Shown here in pieces: positions 21,601 to 53,455 of a stretch of DNA of 64,000 nucleotides. Made by a program: the position numbers and the translations under genes. Every line of letters starts with the position of its first letter. The first letter of the stretch is position 1. The notes below the pieces were generated by a model. It made no database searches, was not told the origin of the DNA, and worked only from the letters and a program-made list of their open reading frames with translations. The stretch is from Aureimonas sp. OT7 (GTDB lineage: Bacteria; Pseudomonadota; Alphaproteobacteria; Rhizobiales; Rhizobiaceae), in assembly GCF_014844055.1 (NCBI RefSeq), contig NZ_CP062167.1:387501-451500 (forward strand), given 5' to 3'.

Positions 21601-23496
21601 ACGACGCCCTTCACGGCGGCGGGCTGCGGCGACATGTCGGGCGACGTGTTCGGCAACGGCATGCTCCTGTCGCCGGCGACACGGCTCATAGCCGCATTCG
21701 ACCATCGCGATATCTTCATCGACCCCTCGCCCGACGCCCCCACATCCTTTGCCGAACGGCAGCGGCTGTTTCAGAAACCGCGCTCGAGCTGGGCCGATTA
21801 CGATCGCAGCCTGATTTCAGAGGGCGGCGGTGTCTTCTCGCGGCGTGAAAAGCGCATAACCCTGTCCGAGGCGGCCGCCGAAGCCATCGGCTGGGACAAG
21901 CGCACCGGCACGCCCTCGGAGGTCATCTCCGCCATTCTCAGGGCGCCCGTGGACCTCCTGTGGTTCGGCGGCATCGGCACCTATATCCGCGCCGATGCGG
22001 AAACCGCCGCGGATGTCGGAGACAAGGCCAATGACAGCGTCCGCATCGCGGGGCGCGAGGTACGCGCCGCCGTCGTGGGCGAAGGGGCCAATCTCGGCGT
22101 CACCCAGCGCGGCCGTATCGAATACGCCCTGCGCGGCGGCCGCATCAACACCGACGCCATCGACAATTCCGCGGGCGTGAATACCTCTGACGTCGAGGTG
22201 AACATCAAGATCGCGCTGAAGAGCGCCATGGCGGAAGGTCGCCTTGCGCGACCGGACCGCAATGCGTTGCTGGCGCGCATGACGCCGGATGTGGCGGACC
22301 TCGTTCTGGCCAACAATTACGAGCAGACGCTCGCTTTGTCCCTCGAGCAGATCGCCGGGGCCGACAGGTTGCCGCTCCAGGGCCGCCTCATATCGCGCCT
22401 GGAAGGCGAGAAGCGGCTGGACAGGGCGGTGGAGTATCTGCCGAACGACCGCGAGCTGGCCGACTTCAAGGCGGCCGGTCGTGGGCTGACGCGGCCCGAG
22501 CTGGCCGTCCTGCTGGCCTATGCGAAGATCGATCTCTTCGACCAGCTGATCGCCAGCCCCCTGCCGGACGATCCCTACCTGGAGGCAAGGCTGTTCGCCT
22601 ATTTCCCGCCTGCCATGCGTGACGGCCATCGGGGCGACATCCAGAGCCACCGGCTACGCCGCGAGATCATCGCAACCGATCTCGCCAACGCACTCGCCAA
22701 TCGCCTTGGGCCGTGCTTCCCGACGGCGATGAGCGACGCGACGGGCGCCACGTCGGCACAGGTGACGCGCGCCTTCGTCGTCGCCTATGACGGGCTCGAC
22801 ATGGCCGCGTTGATCTCCCGGATCGATGCGCAGGACAACCAGTTGCCCGGCTCCGTCCAGAACGAGCTGTATCGGACCGTGGCGCTGACCCTCCAGATCG
22901 TGACCGCATGGCTGGTCCGCAACATGCCTCCGGAAACGGAAACCTCGGTGGCCGTCGCGGCCCTGCAGCGCATGCAGTCCACCATGAAGCCGAAACTTTT
23001 GGAGCTTGCCAGCGACCGCGCTCGGGACAAGTATGCGGCCCGCCTGCAGGCACTGCTGGACAAGGATATCCCCGAGGAGCTGGCGCACGAGGTCGCGCTG
23101 CTTCCGCTGATCGGCCTGATTCCGGACGCCGCCCGCGTTTCACGTGAAACGGGCAAGCCGGGCGATGACGTCCTGTCGGCCTATTTCCAGATGACGAAGC
23201 GGCTGCGCATCGGCCGGCTGGAGACGGCGATCATGGGCATCCGGCCGCAGGATTATTTCGAGACCCTGACGCTGGAGCGTGCCGGCAGCCAGATATCCAA
23301 CGCGCGGCGCAGGCTGACCACCGATGTCCTGACGCGCTTCGGCCAGAGCGACGACCCGGTTGCCGCCTGGGCAGCCGAAGAGGGAGACAAGATCGACCGG
23401 ATTGCAGAGCGAATCAGCGAACTCGTCGGCAGTGGCGAAACATCGGTTGCACGGCTGACGCTGGCAGCGGGACTGCTGATGGACCTCGCGGGCTGA
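18622..23496 (+). CDS. gdhB: NAD-specific glutamate dehydrogenase, large type
   Basis: 1,624-residue glutamate dehydrogenase of the large (L_180-like) class, which deaminates glutamate to 2-oxoglutarate with NAD. An N-terminal half with ACT-like regulatory regions precedes the catalytic part near residues 760-1200, recognisable from [19 protein letters not shown], the K-rich [12 protein letters not shown] and the [14 protein letters not shown] stretch. Length matches this class (about 1,600). The product feeds the 2-oxoglutarate dehydrogenase encoded 8 kb away. Codons 1506-1510 (VSRET) are a parS-like site. A strong terminator follows. No strong ribosome site is visible; the start is set by homology. 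Confidence 0.95.
23136..23151. other. parS-like ParB site (inside gdhB)
   Basis: CGTTTCACGTGAAACG: the 14-bp core is identical to the parS consensus TGTTTCACGTGAAACA, and the outer pair is C/G, keeping perfect symmetry. It lies about 15.4 kb left of the putative origin, inside the glutamate dehydrogenase gene. Confidence 0.8.
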
Positions 23497-30560: not shown

Positions 30561-31874
30561 ATGCGGGGAGTGTTTCACGTGAGACACGAAATTGTTCGCG
30601 CCGAAGATGCGAGTGCCCGGACCCTCGCCCGGTTGATCCGGCAGGGATATGAAAGCTTCCAACCGGAAATCGCGGTCCGTCTGTGGACGGGTGAGCGCCT
30701 CGGGCCGGTGGATGGACCGGTCGTGGTACTGCATGATCCCGTGGCGTTGTCGCGCCTTGCCTTCCGGCCGACGATCACCACGCTCGTCGAGCTGTGGATG
30801 GAAAAAGCCTTCGATATCGAGGACGGCACGCTGTTCGACGTCGCTGGCGTCAAGAGCCGGGTCAAGACCAAGCAGGCCCTGAAACAGATCGGCAAGTGGC
30901 AGGTGGCGCGCGCGCTGCCTGCGCTGGTACGGCTGCGGCGCCAGGGAAAGGTCGTCCATGCGGCGATCGGGGAAGGCGCCGGCGCCAGTGGCTCCACCAG
31001 GCAGGCCATCCAATATCATTACGATGTCTCCAACGATTTCTACCGGCTGTTCCTGGACCAGCGCATGCTCTACTCCTGCGCGTACTTCGATGGCTGGCAC
31101 GACGATCTCGACAGGGCTCAGCGCGACAAGCTGGACATGATCTGCCGAAAACTGCGCCTGCAGCCGGGCGAACGTATGCTCGACATCGGCAGCGGCTGGG
31201 GTGCGCTCCTGATCCACGCAGTGTCCCATTACGGGGTCGTGGGCCACGGCGTCACGCTGAGCCAGGCCCAGTTCGACCTGTCGCGCGAGCGGATCGCCGA
31301 AGCCGGATTATCCGACCGGATCACGATCGAGCTGAAGCCGTTTCAGGATCTGTCCGGAAGCTTCGACAAGATATCCTCCATCGGCATGTTCGAGCATGTG
31401 GGCTTTGCCCATCACGACGAGTACTTTGCCGCGGTCCATCGGCTTCTGGAACCGGGCGGGCTCTATCTGCACCATGCCATAACGCGCCCCGCCAAGAAGA
31501 CGGTGCGGCAGTTCCATCGCAAATCGGCGGAATACAAGGCTTTGACGCAATACATCTTTCCGGGGGGCGAGCTGGATTATATCGGCCACTCCCTTCAGAA
31601 GCTCGAGGCCTACCGTTTCGAGATCCACGACGTGGAAGGGTGGCGGGAGCACTATGCCCGAACCCTCAGGCTGTGGGCCAATCGGTTGCAGGACAACATG
31701 GAAGCCGCGATCGGAATGATCGGAGAGCCGCGGGCCCGGCTCTGGCTGGCCTATCTCGTGGGATGTGCCATCAGCTTCGAACGCGGCGATGCGTTGATCC
31801 AGCAAACGCTGGCCTCTCGGAAGGTGAAGGGGCCCAGCAGGCTGCCGCCGACGCGCCGCGACCTGTATGCCTGA
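30561..31874 (+). CDS. cfa: Cyclopropane-fatty-acyl-phospholipid synthase
   Basis: 437-residue SAM-dependent enzyme that adds a methylene bridge to unsaturated acyl chains of membrane lipids. The SAM motif is MLDIGSGWGALLIHA; upstream is YHYDVSNDFYRLFLD and YSCAYF, downstream FDKISSIGMFEHVG, all typical of the family. An in-frame GTG at 30537 is an alternative start. A parS-like site covers codons 4-9 (30571-30586), so the gene start lies within a probable ParB-binding site. The gene is 66 bp or more from gdx. Confidence 0.93.
   Translation: MRGVFHVRHEIVRAEDASARTLARLIRQGYESFQPEIAVRLWTGERLGPVDGPVVVLHDPVALSRLAFRPTITTLVELWMEKAFDIEDGTLFDVAGVKSRVKTKQALKQIGKWQVARALPALVRLRRQGKVVHAAIGEGAGASGSTRQAIQYHYDVSNDFYRLFLDQRMLYSCAYFDGWHDDLDRAQRDKLDMICRKLRLQPGERMLDIGSGWGALLIHAVSHYGVVGHGVTLSQAQFDLSRERIAEAGLSDRITIELKPFQDLSGSFDKISSIGMFEHVGFAHHDEYFAAVHRLLEPGGLYLHHAITRPAKKTVRQFHRKSAEYKALTQYIFPGGELDYIGHSLQKLEAYRFEIHDVEGWREHYARTLRLWANRLQDNMEAAIGMIGEPRARLWLAYLVGCAISFERGDALIQQTLASRKVKGPSRLPPTRRDLYA
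30571..30586. other. parS-like ParB site (5' end of cfa)
   Basis: TGTTTCACGTGAGACA differs from the parS consensus by one base (A to G at position 13). It lies about 8 kb left of the putative origin, within the first codons of cfa. Confidence 0.7.
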
Positions 31875-36833: not shown

Positions 36834-37682
36834 TCAAACTCCCTTCTCGATATCGCGCAGGACGAGGCCACGAAGTGCCTCGTCCACCTGTGGCTTTACG
36901 CCGAACCATCGCTCGAAACCCGGCACGGCCTGATGCAGGAGCATGCCGAGCCCGTCCGCCGTCCGCAGGCCGCGGGCCCGCGCCGCCGCCAGCAGGGGCG
37001 TCTCGATGGGCACGTAGACGATGTCTGTCACAAGGGCCGCATCGGCAAGGCCGGTAAGGTCGCTTATCGCCAATGCCTCGCCATCGGGCGTGTGTGCCGG
37101 ACGCGTATTGACGAGGAGGTCCGCCCGGCGCATCAATCGCGCCTCGTCCTCGAGCCCGTGGGCCATGACGCGCCCGCCGAACCCATCGGCAACCGTCGCC
37201 GCCCGTGCCGGATTGCGGTTCACGATATGTACGCTGCGCGCGCCGGCCGAAAGAACGGCGTGGACAACCGCCCGTGCCGCGCCCCCCGCGCCCAGCACCA
37301 CCACCGTCTCGGCATCGCGCCAGCCCGCCAGCCGGTCATCCAGATTGGCGGCAAAGCCGTGGGCGTCGGTGTTGCCGCCAACCAGCACATCGTCCTCGAA
37401 CCACAGCGTGTTGACCGCGCCGATGGCGGTGGCTGCCGCATCGAGCCGACCGGCAGCGCGGAAGGCCGCTTCCTTGTGGGGAATGGTCACGTTGCCGCCG
37501 ACGAACCCCCCGGATCTGAGGTCCGACAGGAACTGCTCGATCTCCTCGGGCGGTACGCCTGCGCGCTGGTAACTGCCCGGCAGGCCGTGCCGCTGCAACC
37601 AGGCTCCGTGGATCAACGGCGAACGGGAGTGCCATACCGGCCACCCGGTGACGAAGGCGCGCGGTATCGCCACATCAGGCAT
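36834..37682 (-). CDS. aroE: Shikimate dehydrogenase
   Basis: 282-residue NADP-dependent enzyme reducing 3-dehydroshikimate in aromatic amino-acid synthesis. The catalytic pair is K70 (NVTIPHKE) and D106 (GGNTDAHGF); the cofactor motif is GAGGAARA; the C-terminal GLGMLLHQAVPGFERWFG motif is typical. The start at 37682 overlaps maf by 8 nt. Confidence 0.95.
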   Translation of the reverse strand: MPDVAIPRAFVTGWPVWHSRSPLIHGAWLQRHGLPGSYQRAGVPPEEIEQFLSDLRSGGFVGGNVTIPHKEAAFRAAGRLDAAATAIGAVNTLWFEDDVLVGGNTDAHGFAANLDDRLAGWRDAETVVVLGAGGAARAVVHAVLSAGARSVHIVNRNPARAATVADGFGGRVMAHGLEDEARLMRRADLLVNTRPAHTPDGEALAISDLTGLADAALVTDIVYVPIETPLLAAARARGLRTADGLGMLLHQAVPGFERWFGVKPQVDEALRGLVLRDIEKGV

Positions 37683-38274
37683 CGAGGGCGCCTTCCGCCT
37701 GCAGATCCTTGACCAGCGGCAGCAGAGGCAGGCCGACAATGGTGAAGAAATCGCCCTCTATCCGATCCATCAGGAGGATACCGGAGCCCTCGATCTGGTA
37801 GGCGCCGACACTGCCCAGCACCGCCTCGCCGGCCTTGGCGAGATACTGGCCGATCTCCTTGGGTGTCAATTGACGCAAGGTGATGGAGGCGGTCTCGACC
37901 CGTCGGCTCAGCACCACGCCGCTTCTGACAATCGCGTAGGCGCTGTGCAGTCTGTGCGTGCGCCCGGACAAGGCCAGGAGCGTGCGTCGCGCCTGTTCCA
38001 TGGATGTCGGCTTGTGGAAGAGAACGCCATCCAGCTCCAGAGTCTGGTCGGCCCCTACCACGAACCGCCCTGGCCGACCCTCCGACACGTCGACGGCCTT
38101 CGCTTCCGCCAGGATCGAGGCCAGGTCTTCGGCCGTTACCTCCGCATCCCCGAACGACTCCTCGACGGCGCGTTCATCGATGCCGGAGGCGATCGCCTCG
38201 ACGGCGATCCCCGCCTGTTCGAGAAGGCGTCGCCGATGCACGCTGCCCGACGCGAGAATGATGGGTTCCGTCAT
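37675..38274 (-). CDS. maf: Maf-like nucleoside triphosphate pyrophosphatase
   Basis: 199 residues. Maf proteins hydrolyse non-canonical or surplus nucleoside triphosphates and can arrest division when overproduced. The N-terminal IILASGSVHRRRLL loop, the ERAVEES segment and the GADQTLELDG site are the family motifs. It is the first gene left of the putative origin and opens the leftward aroE-coaE-dnaQ row. Confidence 0.93.
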   Translation of the reverse strand: MTEPIILASGSVHRRRLLEQAGIAVEAIASGIDERAVEESFGDAEVTAEDLASILAEAKAVDVSEGRPGRFVVGADQTLELDGVLFHKPTSMEQARRTLLALSGRTHRLHSAYAIVRSGVVLSRRVETASITLRQLTPKEIGQYLAKAGEAVLGSVGAYQIEGSGILLMDRIEGDFFTIVGLPLLPLVKDLQAEGALDA

Positions 38275-38455
38275 TCGAACCTCCCCTGAGCTGTCCCAGC
38301 ATCCCTTCTAGCCAGCCACGCGGCCGCGTTCCAGACGGCGGACTCGATTCTTAGACACGGTGCAAGGGGAACCAACCCGCCGCCCCCGACATTCTGGCAG
38401 GTCTGTGGGAATCACTGGATGGTATGGGGGAGCGCCCACGCCTTAGCCGGACGCG

Positions 38456-38481
38456 GTGGGAAAGCGCCATGCTTTTCCACA
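38456..38481. repeat. Inverted pair of DnaA-box-like sequences in putative oriC
   Basis: GTGGGAAAGC (38456-38465) and GCTTTTCCAC (38471-38480) are inverted repeats matching at 9 of 10 positions around a 5-bp centre. The right arm contains the DnaA-box-like TTTTCCACA; the left arm reads CTTTCCCAC on the other strand, a weaker match, so two DnaA molecules could face each other here. Confidence 0.5.
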
Positions 38482-38747
38482 TGGCTGACCAGGCGGACGC
38501 TTGTGGTCATGGCAATCTGAATATCGGGGAAAACGCCGTCGCACGCAGTGCATCGTGCACACCTCATCCACAGGCGCCGGTGATCCTTACCTTGTCCAAT
38601 ACGATGATTCTGCACGACTATTTCGAAAATGCGCGTCGCCCACACGATGCCGCGCACTGTCATCGACAGGCTCGACTGCCGGGGCCCCATTTGCATGGCT
38701 AACGATCCGTGACCATGAATTCCTGCAATCCACGGCCATAAAGAATA

Positions 38748-38771
38748 AGAATCCTTTTCTATAGGGATTCT
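38748..38771. repeat. Inverted repeat with paired GANTC sites before hemE
   Basis: AGAATCC (38748-38754) and GGATTCT (38765-38771) are perfect 7-bp arms around an AT-rich centre. Each arm contains a GANTC methylation site. It lies in the AT-rich part of the putative origin, about 65-85 bp upstream of hemE, where it could also affect hemE transcription. Confidence 0.5.
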
Positions 38772-38834
38772 ATATTTAGGGGATAAATGCGATCGCCGTG
38801 TCCGACGATCGATCGACGAGGAATGGATGCCATC

Positions 38835-39857
38835 ATGCCAAGACGCCGATTGCTGAGGGCCATCGACGGAGAAACGCTCGACACGCCCCCGATCTGGCTG
38901 ATGCGCCAGGCGGGGCGCTACCTGCCCGAATATCGCGCGACGCGGGCCGAGGCCGGCTCCTTTCTCGATCTCTGCTACAATCCGGCATTGGCGACGGAAG
39001 TCACGCTGCAGCCGATACGGCGCTTCGGCTTCGACGCGGCCATCCTGTTCTCGGATATCCTCGTCATCCCCGATGCCCTGCGCCGCAACGTCCGTTTCGT
39101 GGCGGGCGAAGGGCCGCAGATGGACCCGCTGTTGCCGCGCGAAGTCGAGACGCTCGACCCGTCCATGGCCGAAACGCATCTGGCACCGGTCATCGCGGCC
39201 GTCGCTCGTATTCGCGAAGCCCTGCCCGACGAGACTGCGCTGATCGGGTTCTGTGGTGCGCCCTTCACGGTCGCCACCTACATGATCGCCGGTCACGGAA
39301 CTCCCGATCAGGCCCCTGCCCGGCTGTTCGCCTATCGCCATCCGGACGAGATGGATGCCCTGCTGGCGCTGCTGGCCGACATGTCGGCGCAATATCTCAT
39401 CCGCCAGCTTCGTGCCGGGGCGGACTGCGTCCAGATCTTCGACAGCTGGGCCGGCATTCTCGACGAGGGCGGTTTCCGCCGCTTCGCCGTCACCCCGGTC
39501 AAGAGGATCGTCGCGCAGGTCAGGGCTGCCGAGCCGGGTGCGCGGATCATCGGCTTCGCCAAGGGCGCCGGCGCCTATCTCGATTTCTATCGCGCCGAAA
39601 CGGGCGTTGACGTCGTCGGGCTGGACTGGACCGTGCCGGCCGCACAGGGCCGCCGCCTGCAGGCGGATGGCGCGGTGCAGGGCAATCTGGACCCGCTGCG
39701 CCTGATCGCCGGCGGCGCTGCCCTGGAAGACGGCGTAGACGCCATCCTGGCAGCGCTGGGCGGCGGTCCGCTGATCTTCAACCTTGGACATGGCATCACG
39801 CCGGATACGCCGATCGCGCATGTCGAGGCGCTCGTGCGCCGCGTCCGCGGCGGCTAG
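38835..39857 (+). CDS. hemE: Uroporphyrinogen decarboxylase
   Basis: 340-residue haem-pathway enzyme that converts uroporphyrinogen III to coproporphyrinogen III. The N-terminal [14 protein letters not shown] motif gives R24 and R28 at the substrate carboxylates; [13 protein letters not shown] holds the central aspartate; [13 protein letters not shown] and [12 protein letters not shown] follow. Three starts are possible: 38787 (after AGGGGATAA), 38823 and 38835. I chose 38835 since it opens as homologues do ([13 protein letters not shown]). First gene right of the putative origin. Confidence 0.93.
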
Positions 39858-41203: not shown

Positions 41204-42469
41204 ATGCCTGAGATAAAACTCCAGGACCTCAAGAACAAAAGCGCCCCCGAACTGATCGCCTTCGCCGAAGAGAACGGCGTGGAGAACGCATCCGTCCTGC
41301 GCAAGCAGGAATTGCTGTTCGCGATCCTCAAGCAACTGGCCGCCCAGGATGTCGAGATCATCGGCGAGGGCGTGGTCGAAGTGCTGCAGGACGGCTTCGG
41401 TTTCCTGCGCTCGCCCGAGGCGAACTACCTTCCGGGCCCAGACGATATCTACATCTCGCCGTCGCAGCTCCGGCGGTTTTCCCTGAAGACCGGCGATACG
41501 GTCGAGGGGCCCATTCGCGGCCCCAAGGACGGGGAACGCTATTTTGCGCTTCTCAAGGTCAACACGATCAATTTCGACGACCCGGAGAAGATTCGGCACA
41601 AGAGCCATTTCGACAATCTGACGCCGCTCTATCCGAACGAGCGCTTCAAGATGGAAATCGCCGATCCGACCCGCAAGGATCTGTCGGCTCGGGTGATCGA
41701 CCTGGTGGCGCCCCTGGGCAAGGGTCAGCGCGCGCTCATCGTCGCTCCGCCGCGCACCGGCAAGACCGTGCTGCTGCAGAACATCGCCCATTCCATCACG
41801 GCAAATCATCCGGAATGCTATCTCATCGTTCTTCTGATCGATGAGCGTCCGGAAGAAGTGACCGACATGCAGCGGTCGGTGAAAGGCGAGGTCGTCTCCT
41901 CGACCTTCGACGAGCCCGCCACACGCCACGTGCAAGTGGCCGAAATGGTGATCGAGAAGGCCAAGCGCCTCGTCGAGCATGGACGCGATGTGGTCATCCT
42001 TCTGGATTCCATCACCCGTCTCGGCCGCGCCTACAACACCGTGGTGCCGTCATCCGGCAAGGTGCTGACGGGCGGTGTCGATGCCAACGCGCTGCAGCGT
42101 CCGAAGCGCTTCTTCGGTGCGGCCCGCAATATCGAGGAGGGCGGTTCGCTGACGATCATCGCGACCGCGCTGATCGATACCGGATCGCGCATGGACGAAG
42201 TCATCTTCGAAGAGTTCAAGGGAACCGGCAACTCCGAGTTGGTCCTCGACCGCAAGGTCGCCGACAAGCGCATCTTCCCGTCCATGGATATCCTCAAGTC
42301 CGGCACCCGCAAGGAAGACCTGCTGGTTCCGCGCCAGGACCTGCAGAAGATATTCGTCCTGCGCCGTATCCTTGCGCCGATGGGCACGACGGACGCCATC
42401 GAGTTCCTGATCGACAAATTGAAGCAGACGAAGACCAATTCGGACTTCTTCGACTCTATGAACACCTGA
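41204..42469 (+). CDS. rho: Transcription termination factor Rho
   Basis: 421-residue hexameric RNA helicase. The N-terminal helical part (1-45, [17 protein letters not shown]) precedes the cold-shock RNA-binding fold ([24 protein letters not shown]). Walker A is APPRTGKTV and Walker B is [16 protein letters not shown]; the secondary RNA site is in [14 protein letters not shown]. It ends with [19 protein letters not shown] as usual. It has its own leader and terminator, so it is probably a single-gene unit. Confidence 0.97.
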
Positions 42470-42650: not shown

Positions 42651-43964
42651 ATGTTTGACGCAACCGATACGATCCTCGCCCTGTCGAGCGGCAGCCTGCC
42701 GGCCGGCATCGCCGTATTGCGGATCAGCGGCCCGGCGGCCCTGGCCCTTGTTGGGCGCCATGTCACCCGGTTGCCGCCGCCCCGGCATGCCGGGCTGCGG
42801 ACGATCCGCGATGGCGATGGCGCCATCGTGGACAGGGGGCTGGTGATCCTGTTCCCGGGCCCGGACAGCGTAACGGGCGAGGATCTGGTGGAATTGCACC
42901 TGCATGGCGGCAAGGCCGTCGTGGCGGCATGTCTGGAGGCGCTGACGGCGCACCCGGGCGTACGGCTTGCGGAAGCGGGAGAGTTCACGCGGCGAGCTTT
43001 CGTGAATGGTCGAATGGACCTGACGGAAGCCGAGGGCCTGGCAGACCTGCTGGCCGCCGAGACGGAGCTTCAACGCAAGCTCGCCATCGCCCAGACTGGC
43101 GGCGCAATGCGCAAGGCGTGCGAGGGGTGGATGCGACGGCTGACGCACATCCGGGCAATGCTGGAGGCCGATTTCGACTTTTCCGACGAGGACGACGTCG
43201 CGGACGATGTCGCAGCCGGTGTTTCACGTGAAATCATGGCCCTGCGCTCCGAGCTTGAGGCCGCCCTTGCCAATGCCAAACGGGGCGAGATCCTCAAGGA
43301 TGGGTTCAAGGTCGCGATTGTCGGAGCACCGAATGCCGGTAAGTCGAGCCTCATCAACTGCCTTGCCGAGCGCGATGTCGCCATCGTTTCCGATATTCCC
43401 GGCACCACCCGCGACCGGATCGAGATAACGCTCGATCTCGGTGGGCTCGCGGTCCGCCTGATCGATACGGCGGGCCTGCGCGAAACGGCGGATCCAATCG
43501 AGCGTCTCGGTATCGAGCGCGCCGTCGACGCCGCCCGTCATGCCGACCTCGTCCTTCATCTTTGCCCTGTCGGAGAGGCGGCCGATCCGATCGACGCCGG
43601 CCCGGATGGCCCGCCGACATGGATCGTGACCACAAAGGCGGATACAAGCCCCGATGATCTGCCGGGGCTTGCCATTTCGGTGCGCAGCGGCGCCGGTATC
43701 GACCGCTTGGTCGAGCGGGTGCGCGGCCTTGCCAGCGAAACGGCGGGTGACCCGGAAGGTGGCATCCCGACGCGGAGCCGCCACCGCGACGCCATCGGCA
43801 TGGCCGTGGGCTATCTGCGCGAGTGCGACGTCGAGACGCTGCCGCCGGAGGTGGCGGCGGAATTGCTGCGGATGGCATCCGATGCCCTGGGCCGGATCGT
43901 CGGCAAGCGCGGCGTGGAAGACCTGCTGGACGTCATCTTCTCGCAGTTCTGTATCGGCAAATAG
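42651..43964 (+). CDS. mnmE: tRNA modification GTPase MnmE
   Basis: 437-residue GTPase that, with MnmG, modifies U34 of tRNAs reading NNA/NNG. An N-terminal tetrahydrofolate-binding domain (1-115, DTILALSSG, GEDLVELHLHGG) is followed by a helical domain and the inserted G domain: G1 GAPNAGKSS (225-233), DTAGLRE, TKAD. The C-terminal CIGK is intact. Residues 191-195 (VSREI) are written by a parS-like site. Start by homology; 181 bp after rho. Confidence 0.95.
   Translation: MFDATDTILALSSGSLPAGIAVLRISGPAALALVGRHVTRLPPPRHAGLRTIRDGDGAIVDRGLVILFPGPDSVTGEDLVELHLHGGKAVVAACLEALTAHPGVRLAEAGEFTRRAFVNGRMDLTEAEGLADLLAAETELQRKLAIAQTGGAMRKACEGWMRRLTHIRAMLEADFDFSDEDDVADDVAAGVSREIMALRSELEAALANAKRGEILKDGFKVAIVGAPNAGKSSLINCLAERDVAIVSDIPGTTRDRIEITLDLGGLAVRLIDTAGLRETADPIERLGIERAVDAARHADLVLHLCPVGEAADPIDAGPDGPPTWIVTTKADTSPDDLPGLAISVRSGAGIDRLVERVRGLASETAGDPEGGIPTRSRHRDAIGMAVGYLRECDVETLPPEVAAELLRMASDALGRIVGKRGVEDLLDVIFSQFCIGK
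43220..43235. other. parS-like ParB site (inside mnmE)
   Basis: TGTTTCACGTGAAATC matches the parS consensus at 14 of 16 positions, with both mismatches at the right end, so this may be a weaker site. It lies about 4.6 kb right of the putative origin. Confidence 0.65.
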
Positions 43965-45905: not shown

Positions 45906-46539
45906 TATCGACGGCGACATGATGGCGGTGCTGGATCGCTGGCCTGTTTCACGTGAAACGCGGGACAGGCTGGCCGCCTATGCGAGCCTTGTTCGTACGT
46001 GGCAGAAGCATATCAATCTGGTTGCGCCTTCGACGCTGCCGACACTTTGGAGCCGCCATATCGAAGACGGCCTCTGGCTGAATTCCGTGGCCGGCCCGGT
46101 AAGGCATTGGGCCGACATCGGGTCGGGCGGCGGCTTTCCCGGATTGGTCCTGGCTTGCCTTGCCGCGGAGCGACCGGGACATCACGTCGATCTCGTCGAA
46201 GCCAATGCCAAAAAATCGGCTTTCCTGCGCACCGTGATCCGCGAGCTGTCGTTGCCGGCAAACGTCCATTGCCAGCGGATCGAAGCGGCGGGCGCGGTGC
46301 TCGAGCAGGCGGGCGCGATCAGCGCGCGGGCGCTTGCATCGCTGGAAAGTCTGCTGGGACTCGTAGCACCCTCAATTGAGCCGAAAGCTGTGTGTTACTT
46401 CCTGAAGGGCCGCGCGCATGAGCGCGAAGTTGCCGACGCCACTGCCCATTGGCACTTCGACATGGTAAAGCATCCGTCAAGAACGGAGGCCGAATCCGTT
46501 ATCCTGGAGATCCGGAACTGCCGCCCCGTGGCTGCATGA
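45883..46539 (+). CDS. rsmG: 16S rRNA m7G527 methyltransferase RsmG
   Basis: 218-residue SAM-dependent methyltransferase acting on G527 in the 530 loop. The SAM motif is [12 protein letters not shown] (77-88); [11 protein letters not shown] and [12 protein letters not shown] are family marks. Residues 22-26 (VSRET) are written by a parS-like site. It overlaps mnmG and is followed by parA after 54 bp that carry another parS-like site. Confidence 0.95.
45945..45960. other. parS-like ParB site (inside rsmG)
   Basis: TGTTTCACGTGAAACG differs from the parS consensus only at the last base. It lies about 7.3 kb right of the putative origin and 650 bp before parA. Confidence 0.88.
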
Positions 46540-46541
46540 CG

Positions 46542-46557
46542 TGTCTCACGTGAAACA
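46542..46557. other. parS-like ParB site (parA promoter region)
   Basis: TGTCTCACGTGAAACA has one mismatch to consensus (T to C at position 4). It sits in the 54-bp gap between rsmG and parA, where ParB binding could also affect parAB transcription. Confidence 0.8.
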
Positions 46558-46593
46558 TTCGGCGCCGGTCGAAAGAGGCGACAGGAGCATCCT

Positions 46594-47403
46594 GTGGATA
46601 GTTTGTCATCCGGGCGCATGCGGGTCATAACGATCGCCAACCAGAAGGGCGGCGTCGGCAAGACGACGACTGCAATCAACCTTGCAACGGCCCTGGCTGC
46701 GGTGGGCAGGAAGACCCTGCTTATCGATCTGGATCCACAAGGTAACGCCTCCACGGGGCTCGGCGTCGAAAAGGCCGTGCGCGAGCGCTCCTCCTACGAC
46801 GTGCTTCTCGGCTATGCGTCCGTGGCGCAGGCGGCCATGCAGACGGTCGTCCCCAATCTTTCGCTGATTCCCTCGACGCTCGATCTGCTGGGTGTCGAGA
46901 TGGAAATCGCCTCCGCTGCCGAGCGTGCCTATCGGCTCCGCGATGCCCTCCACGAGCATAGCCTGACGCGATCCCAGTTCGATTTCGTACTGGTTGATTG
47001 CCCACCGTCGTTGAACCTCCTGACCATCAACGCCATGGCGGCGGCGGATTCGATCCTCGTGCCGCTGCAATGCGAGTTCTTCGCGCTGGAAGGGCTGAGC
47101 CAGCTTCTGGAAACGGTCGAGCAGGTCCGCGATACGCTGAACCCGACACTGGCGCTGCACGGCATCGTGCTGACCATGTATGACGGCCGCAACAACCTGG
47201 CCGAGCAGGTGGTGGCCGATGTGCGCACCTATATGGGCGACCATGTCTACCAGACGGTCATACCGCGCAATGTCCGCGTTTCGGAGGCACCGTCCTTCGG
47301 TAAGCCGGCGATCCTGTACGACATGAAATGCCCGGGAAGCCAGGCCTATATCCGCCTGGCGTCCGAAGTGATCCAGCGTGAACGCGAAATGCTCGCCGCA
47401 TGA
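46594..47403 (+). CDS. parA: Chromosome partitioning ATPase ParA (Soj)
   Basis: 269-residue deviant Walker ATPase that moves the ParB-parS complex along the nucleoid. The motif is KGGVGKTTT (18-26), with DLDPQGNAST and VLVDCPPSLNLLTINAM as Walker A' and B regions. The GTG at 46594 is chosen because of AGGAG six nt upstream; an ATG at 46618 is an alternative. It is immediately followed by parB. Confidence 0.96.
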   Translation: MDSLSSGRMRVITIANQKGGVGKTTTAINLATALAAVGRKTLLIDLDPQGNASTGLGVEKAVRERSSYDVLLGYASVAQAAMQTVVPNLSLIPSTLDLLGVEMEIASAAERAYRLRDALHEHSLTRSQFDFVLVDCPPSLNLLTINAMAAADSILVPLQCEFFALEGLSQLLETVEQVRDTLNPTLALHGIVLTMYDGRNNLAEQVVADVRTYMGDHVYQTVIPRNVRVSEAPSFGKPAILYDMKCPGSQAYIRLASEVIQREREMLAA

Positions 47404-47414
47404 AGAGGGACCAG

Positions 47415-48371
47415 ATGAAGGAAGACAAGTCGCGTGCCCGCCTTGGACGGGGCCTCGCCTCGCTGATCGGCGGGGCTGGCGATGCCGGCCGGGAGGCTTC
47501 GGGCGGGCTCGCGCCGCGTCCGTTTGTGGCGCAGCCGCAGACCGGGGGAGAGCGCAAGGTTCCGGTTTCGGCCCTGACGCCGAACCCCAAGAATCCGCGC
47601 CGCACCTTCGAAGATGCCGATCATGCGGAACTGGTGGCATCCGTGCGCAATCACGGCGTCGTCCAGCCGATCCTCGCACGCAAGGTGCCGGGCCAGACCG
47701 AGCTGGAGATCGTCGCAGGCGAACGGCGGTGGCGGGCGGCACGCGCCGCCGGCCTGAAAGACGTTCCTGTCGTCATCCGGGACATCAGCGACCGGGAGTC
47801 GCTGGAAATCGCCCTGATCGAAAACGTCCAGCGCGCCGATCTGAACGCCATCGAAGAGGCGCTCGGATACGAGATGCTGATCGATGAGCACGGCTACACG
47901 CAGGCCGACCTTGCCGACATCCTCGGCAAAAGCCGCAGCCATGTCGCCAATACGCTGCGGCTTCTGAAGCTTCCCGATGCCGTCCGCACCATGGTGGTGA
48001 AGGGTGAGCTGTCGCCCGGTGCCGCACGCAGCGCGATTTCCATGGACGATCCCGAAGCGTTTGCCCGGCAGGTGATCGGGCGCGGGCTCAGCGTCCGCGA
48101 GGCGGAAAAGCTTGCGCGTGGAGACGACGTTGTTCCGACGCGGCGGACACGGAAGCCCGGTCCGGCCGGCCCCGCAACGGCAACGGAAGCCGCCGATGCG
48201 CCGAAGGACGCCGATACGGCGGCACTCGAGAAGCTGTTGGCCGAGGCGCTGCAGATGCCGGTGAGCGTGCGGCTGAAGGGCGAGGGCGGCATACTGACCC
48301 TCGAGTTCGGCAATCTGGAGCAGCTCGACGACCTGTGCCGGCTGCTGCAGGGCGGCAGCGTCGACGCCTGA
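47415..48371 (+). CDS. parB: Chromosome partitioning protein ParB (Spo0J)
   Basis: 318-residue CTP-dependent DNA clamp that loads at parS. The CTP-binding N-domain contains NPRRTF, NHGVVQPI and GERRWRAA (102-109); the helix-turn-helix is near YTQADLADILGKSRSHVANTLRLLKLP; the C-terminal dimer domain is at about 270-318. The start at 47415 has AGAGGG five nt upstream; an ATG at 47400 overlapping the parA stop (ATGA) is the alternative. Six parS-like sites in the window are its expected targets. Confidence 0.95.
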   Translation: MKEDKSRARLGRGLASLIGGAGDAGREASGGLAPRPFVAQPQTGGERKVPVSALTPNPKNPRRTFEDADHAELVASVRNHGVVQPILARKVPGQTELEIVAGERRWRAARAAGLKDVPVVIRDISDRESLEIALIENVQRADLNAIEEALGYEMLIDEHGYTQADLADILGKSRSHVANTLRLLKLPDAVRTMVVKGELSPGAARSAISMDDPEAFARQVIGRGLSVREAEKLARGDDVVPTRRTRKPGPAGPATATEAADAPKDADTAALEKLLAEALQMPVSVRLKGEGGILTLEFGNLEQLDDLCRLLQGGSVDA

Positions 48372-53439: not shown

Positions 53440-53455
53440 GGTTTCACGTGAAACA
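53440..53455. other. parS-like ParB site (after yggS)
   Basis: GGTTTCACGTGAAACA differs from the parS consensus only at the first base. It lies in the 38-bp gap between yggS and the AI-2E family gene, about 14.8 kb right of the putative origin; this is one of two sites (with the parA promoter one) outside coding sequence. Confidence 0.88.

Follow-up and report, generated by a model that had tools for sequence, protein, structure and literature searches.

The maf–hemE intergenic region as the very probable chromosomal origin of Aureimonas sp. OT7, with a conserved module beside hemE

Gene order and sequence features of the maf–hemE gap

Aureimonas sp. OT7 is a bacterium of human-skin source with a circular chromosome, and it is close to A. 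altamirensis (PMC7936629), whose hemE loci are the closest named relatives of the locus described here (identity 97% and 96%). The window, meaning the whole stretch of DNA analysed, is 64 kb long and corresponds to positions 387,501–451,500 of the 4,181,223-bp chromosome; coordinates below are those of the window unless the chromosome is named. A gap of 560 bp (chromosome positions 425,775–426,334) separates the leftward genes maf, aroE, coaE and dnaQ from the rightward genes hemE, rho, mnmE, mnmG, rsmG, parA and parB, and dnaA begins at base 1 of the chromosome, 426 kb away. The gap had been reported in a preliminary description as a gene-free stretch at a strand switch; it is present as such, and profile matches confirm the gene names on both sides. 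The edge of a 16S rRNA gene lies at 1–312 on the minus strand, approximately 38 kb from the gap. The genes and the elements of the gap are the following:

37675..38274, minus strand: maf (PF02545)
38275..38834, no strand assigned: putative oriC region between maf and hemE, with boxes, GANTC sites and an AT-rich end, in the skew-minimum stretch
38340..38350, plus strand: maf-side block GGACTCGATTC with two overlapping GANTC sites; GGA.TC...T invariant in 20 genus gaps, the remaining positions at least 80% conserved
38404..38412, minus strand: DnaA-box-like TGTGGGAAT (ATTCCCACA on the minus strand); TGTG invariant in 20 gaps
38473..38481, plus strand: DnaA box TTTTCCACA, one mismatch; 12 of the 20 gaps in the alignment carry TCATCCACA here
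38499..38506, minus strand: weak DnaA-box-like GCTTGTGG; gc.TG.Tg conserved
38513..38532, minus strand: block conserved in the genus alignment, TTGTGA...CGGG in many congeners, degenerate in OT7
38564..38572, plus strand: DnaA box TCATCCACA, one mismatch; ATCCACA at this place only in L125–L128 of the 20 gaps
38735..38786, no strand assigned: AT-rich segment, candidate DNA unwinding element (sequence, AT content)
38835..39857, plus strand: hemE (TIGR01464, score above cut-off)
46594..48371, plus strand: parA and parB (PF13614; PF02195 and TIGR00180)

The right border of the gap depends on the start of hemE. The ATG at 38835 is kept in position in all 21 genus loci, OT7 included, and the in-frame ATG at 38787 is missing in L127; the former is the more likely start on this comparison, although the ATG at 38823 may serve as an alternative. 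A start at 38835 agrees with the border drawn earlier. When the gap sequence was sought on plasmids, none was found.

The two plus-strand 9-mers at 38473 and 38564 each differ from the DnaA box TTATCCACA by one mismatch. Markov shuffles of 38275–38786 yield a mean of 0.07 such boxes, and two or more appear in 0.15% of 2000 shuffles. No exact TTATCCACA occurs across the 64-kb window, where boxes with at most one mismatch are limited to 29293, 38473, 38564 and 46593. The gap also holds six GANTC sites (38341, 38346, 38409, 38606, 38749 and 38766), against a shuffle mean of 2.1, with six or more in 1.6% of Markov shuffles of the same interval. This count alone is not special, because six sites per 560 nt are also reached from 784 onward in the window and in three other sampled stretches. 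The combination is more selective: in 42,052 overlapping windows of 560 nt, taken across the 64-kb window and 40 sampled 20-kb stretches, the maf–hemE gap is the only place with at least two boxes and at least five GANTC sites. With 67% AT, 38718–38777 exceeds every other 60-bp segment of the window, whose average is 35%; values up to 83% occur in other sampled stretches, so that the segment is not the record of the genome. All three features had been noted before, as two one-mismatch boxes, six GANTC sites where about two are expected, and an AT-rich segment next to hemE, and each holds on recounting.

Conservation within the genus was assessed from an alignment of 20 of the 21 gaps, the 1075-nt gap of L137 being left out. 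The TGTGGG at 38404 is a conserved block in this alignment, and the strongest conservation falls at 38712–38751, with the best 20-nt windows starting at 38712 and 38732; the best of these has a mean majority-base fraction of 0.93, compared with 0.56 for the whole gap (20 gaps). GANTC is found 5–12 times per gap in each of the 21 genus gaps, where base composition predicts 1.4–3.5. Inspection by eye also revealed a CtrA-like TTAA-N7-TTCAA near maf in the Aureimonas gaps L131, L133, L135, L138–L141 and L143, which is absent from the OT7 clade.

The gene ppsR, also known as COG1806/DUF299, is the usual, though not universal, second border of hemE-linked alphaproteobacterial origins, and it was not encountered here. 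A search of the whole OT7 genome for ppsR (PF03618) found none, and in a 297-genome family sample the profile was missing from 66 genomes, including all five of the genus, OT7 among them. A tblastn search with ppsR of four relatives found no match beside hemE in any of 21 genus loci and recovered all seven positive controls. The maf–hemE gap measures 440–1075 nt in the 21 genus loci. Around ppsR itself, 29 of 30 fetched loci show hemE and maf 1.24–1.37 kb apart and flanking the gene, and the remaining one (L170) has no hemE in reach; L049, L051 and L075 also lack ppsR and have short gaps. The absence of ppsR and the short gaps in 21 of 21 genus loci therefore bear out the earlier remark that maf borders the origin directly, which is true of the genus as sampled. 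Judged from these sequences, loss of the second border gene is a genus trait. Loss of PPDK as the reason for the loss of ppsR is unsupported: TIGR01828 matches, marking candidate PPDK-family proteins, remain in the OT7 genome while ppsR is missing.

A conserved module adjoining hemE

The most conserved part of the gap corresponds to a compact module at its hemE end, which consists of three elements:

38716..38758, plus strand: candidate unwinding module of weak DnaA box, spacer and A-rich triplets (model R1, single match in the genome)
38726..38734, plus strand: weak DnaA box CAATCCACG, three mismatches, identified from sequence and alignments (TGATCCACC in several congeners)
38741..38752, plus strand: four NAN triplets AAG AAT AAG AAT, the central adenine of each unchanged across 36 rows

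Model R1 is a sequence-only model built from 36 aligned rows, with the OT7 sequence among them. Of 41 family genomes, 37 contain a single match, a count that includes OT7 as a training row, and hemE adjoins the match in all 40 loci fetched from this search and a wider one over the order; seven further family matches had no locus to inspect. In the wider order sample only 12 of 297 genomes gave a match, which means little because that search filtered more strictly and considered a smaller number of candidates in each genome. Independently of the model, 28-mers resembling the module, with at most nine mismatches to one of two references, occur upstream of hemE in 50 of 57 loci, and among the seven weaker loci L052 and L161 lack the module by eye. 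Outside the family, the best 28-mers at L053–L123 (71 loci, mostly of other families) have 11–16 mismatches, the same as reversed or complemented controls. In the Sphingomonas gaps L099, L107–L110, L113 and L119–L121, TAGTAGAAGAAG was seen by eye adjoining hemE, and it is perhaps another version of the module.

The module consensus comprises a box core ATCCACC or a variant of it, GACTC, and then AGAA-n-n-AGAA; of 38 rows, 28 have a box with two or three mismatches. The invariant adenines occupy model columns 29, 32, 35 and 38, and columns 19, 31 and 37 are invariant as well. Since the rows are related, agreement in 36 of 36 represents one conserved element and not 36 events. The period-3 spacing of the adenines may partly reflect chance: with six invariant A columns among twelve, simple arithmetic gives a probability of about 9% that one full phase is covered. 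A description of the module was sought in the open-access literature, the scope of the search, and none was found. It is this conserved module that is the part of the locus worth following.

Position of the probable origin on the chromosome

GC skew was computed for 40 sampled 20-kb stretches, and the cumulative sum was rotated round the circle by hand. The minimum falls in the 420–440 kb stretch that holds the gap, and the maximum follows 2.415–2.435 Mb. Skew is positive in 18 of 19 stretches from 525 kb to 2.43 Mb (the remaining one has −0.0002) and negative in 18 of 21 stretches from 2.52 Mb round to 0.44 Mb, the exceptions lying at 105 kb, 3.255 Mb and 3.57 Mb; the 105-kb stretch thus carries positive skew on an otherwise negative arm. 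The local minimum is at 42466 in the window, approximately 3.6 kb to the right of the gap. A cumulative skew minimum was the check proposed in the preliminary description, and in the sampled stretches it places the minimum at the gap to within about 4 kb.

The polarity of KOPS-like GGGNAGGG motifs points to the same place. Between 340 and 520 kb of the chromosome, 2 plus and 13 minus sites lie to the left of the gap, and 20 plus and 4 minus sites to the right. The best split, at 426,814–430,052, accommodates 35 of 39 sites and falls to the right of the gap by 0.5 to about 4 kb; two minus sites are situated in hemE. On the far side of the chromosome, seven plus sites (2,415,020–2,433,135) are followed by eleven minus sites (2,443,442–2,497,545), all consistent. 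Within this flip, between 2,433,135 and 2,443,442, a dif-like 16-mer palindrome, CATAATCTATCTTATG, lies at 2,440,787–2,440,802 with one mismatch to the pattern, and its region is likely the terminus by these sequence signals. The skew maximum within 2415–2515 kb is found at 2,461,026, 20 kb from the dif-like site, which is roughly opposite the gap and divides the chromosome into arms of 2.01 and 2.17 Mb. Among congeners, G007 shows KOPS in agreement with hemE and GC skew that does not agree (best positive arc from 770 kb, hemE at 255 kb), while in G009 KOPS fails to agree in one stretch; the GC skew of both congeners is noisy.

A scan of the window also detected six parS-like palindromes within 16 kb of the gap, three exact and three with one mismatch, spread over about 30 kb that includes the gap and parAB (no strand assigned):

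23137..23150: exact match to the palindrome
30572..30585: one mismatch
43221..43234: one mismatch
45946..45959: exact match to the palindrome
46543..46556: one mismatch
53441..53454: exact match to the palindrome

Taken with the family-wide conservation, the skew, KOPS polarity, dif-like site and parS-like sites support the earlier proposal that Aureimonas sp. OT7 replicates its chromosome from an origin (oriC) in the maf–hemE gap, and on this sequence evidence it almost certainly does. In kind, an origin between maf and hemE is ordinary, in the standard place for alphaproteobacteria.

A quite improbable alternative is that the gap is merely the divergent promoter of maf and hemE, the module being the hemE promoter, and that the true origin is a few kb further right, between hemE and mnmE. 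The constant adjacency of module and hemE would suit such a promoter, as would the 38–60 nt between the module end and hemE in the non-Aureimonas family loci that show the module, and the skew minimum and KOPS split both lie to the right of the gap. Within Aureimonas, however, the module lies anywhere from 78 to 395 nt from hemE; its first part is a DnaA-box core, and conservation extends to several other box-like blocks of the gap. Because the first box with at most one mismatch on the right side of the gap is at 46593, the offset of the skew minimum is treated as the resolution limit of skew. The two roles of the module, as part of the origin and as hemE promoter, are in any case compatible and not exclusive.

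A location beside dnaA, where the public record opens and which is a common origin place in other bacteria, is rejected as scarcely credible: although dnaA begins at base 1, the negative skew from 2.52 to 0.44 Mb extends over both sides of it and turns only between the 0.42 and 0.53 Mb stretches, no DnaA box with at most one mismatch occurs in the 2,223 nt before the gene, and no GANTC in the last 560 nt. With the origin at maf–hemE, the zero point of the chromosome is displaced by 426 kb from the start of the public record; gene-dosage and strand-bias work on Aureimonas should therefore use the maf–hemE origin.

Proposed opening and comparison with known origins

Initiation at the maf–hemE origin would begin with DnaA binding to the boxes spread over 38404–38572 and to the weak box at 38726. 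The DnaA assembly would then open the AT-rich duplex at 38735–38786 next to hemE, where the replicative helicase would be loaded and from which forks would leave both ways; the candidate role of this AT-rich part as unwinding element fits its conservation. ParB bound to the nearby parS sites would segregate the new origins. A CcrM-type enzyme may methylate the GANTC sites, a plausible form of control; the genome encodes GcrA (PF07750) and a protein with a RAMA domain (PF18755), which we take to be the C-terminal domain of CcrM. In Agrobacterium, according to PMC11514494, changes in CcrM had effects on ori2 rather than ori1.

The gap shares some features with other alphaproteobacterial origins and lacks others. 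A search of 38201–38900 for CtrA sites (TTAA-N7-TTAA, at most two mismatches) found none, and neither an exact TGATCCACA G-box nor a TCCCCA W-box was found in the gap, in which it differs from Caulobacter. The oriC of Sinorhizobium adjoins hemE. Cori of Caulobacter crescentus and other hemE-linked origins likewise adjoin hemE and possess an AT-rich stretch and several DnaA boxes (PMC1914354, PMC4285127); unlike these Caulobacter-type origins, the OT7 gap has no DUF299 neighbour. The predicted origin of Wolbachia resembles that of OT7 in keeping the hemE border and losing the DUF299 border (PMC1914354); in Wolbachia a gene with a CBS domain takes the second place and DUF299 lies elsewhere in the genome, whereas in OT7 the neighbour is maf and DUF299 is gone.

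The module itself resembles the basal unwinding system (BUS) of Bacillus subtilis in its box, short spacer and period-3 adenines, and differs from it in strand use. The DnaA-trios of B. subtilis and Helicobacter pylori (PMC8287927, PMC8235120) read 3'-GAT-5' opposite to the box sense, that is, NTN on the box strand. In the module, 36 of 36 rows carry NAN triplets on the box strand and 0 of 36 have a run of three NTN, so that the invariant adenines have the reverse of the published polarity. Three or more 3'-NAN-5' trios no further than 16 nt from a box, as the published rule requires, were found in 5 of 21 genus gaps with the published polarity (1.4 in shuffles) and in 16 of 21 with the inverted one (1.7 in shuffles). 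The OT7 gap has one run of three trios in the published polarity, after 38564, and does not pass in the inverted polarity because its module box has three mismatches. BUS trios of published polarity are unsupported as a conserved feature. A search for a concealed box on the minus strand, on the right-hand side of the A-run, did no better than shuffles (38 rows from 50 loci at no more than nine mismatches).

It is conceivable, though rather doubtful, that origins of the family (Rhizobiaceae and kin) open via the single-copy module, through a weak box and trio-like adenine triplets of inverted polarity on the box strand. If this reading is true, the way in which DnaA takes hold of the opened strands would not be that of the B. 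subtilis system, and a single match to the module could be enough to locate an origin. The module offers a clear test of the published DnaA-trio polarity in alphaproteobacteria and a simple origin marker across the family.

The Escherichia coli origin provides a further comparison. Like the module, R1 of E. coli oriC has an adenine-triplet run on the box strand (TAA TAA GAG, spacer 14), and a second run (ATC CTA ATA, spacer 10) conforms to the published trio rule; because R1 passes both polarities, the likeness is weak and R1 leaves the polarity undecided. In E. coli the strand that DnaA recruits is the upper one, where TT[A/G]T(T) motifs lie (PMC10380432), and the TT[A/G]T motif is present on the bottom strand of the module in only 6 of 36 rows. 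We lean towards an E. coli-like opening, in which DnaA would engage the T-rich bottom strand of the module.
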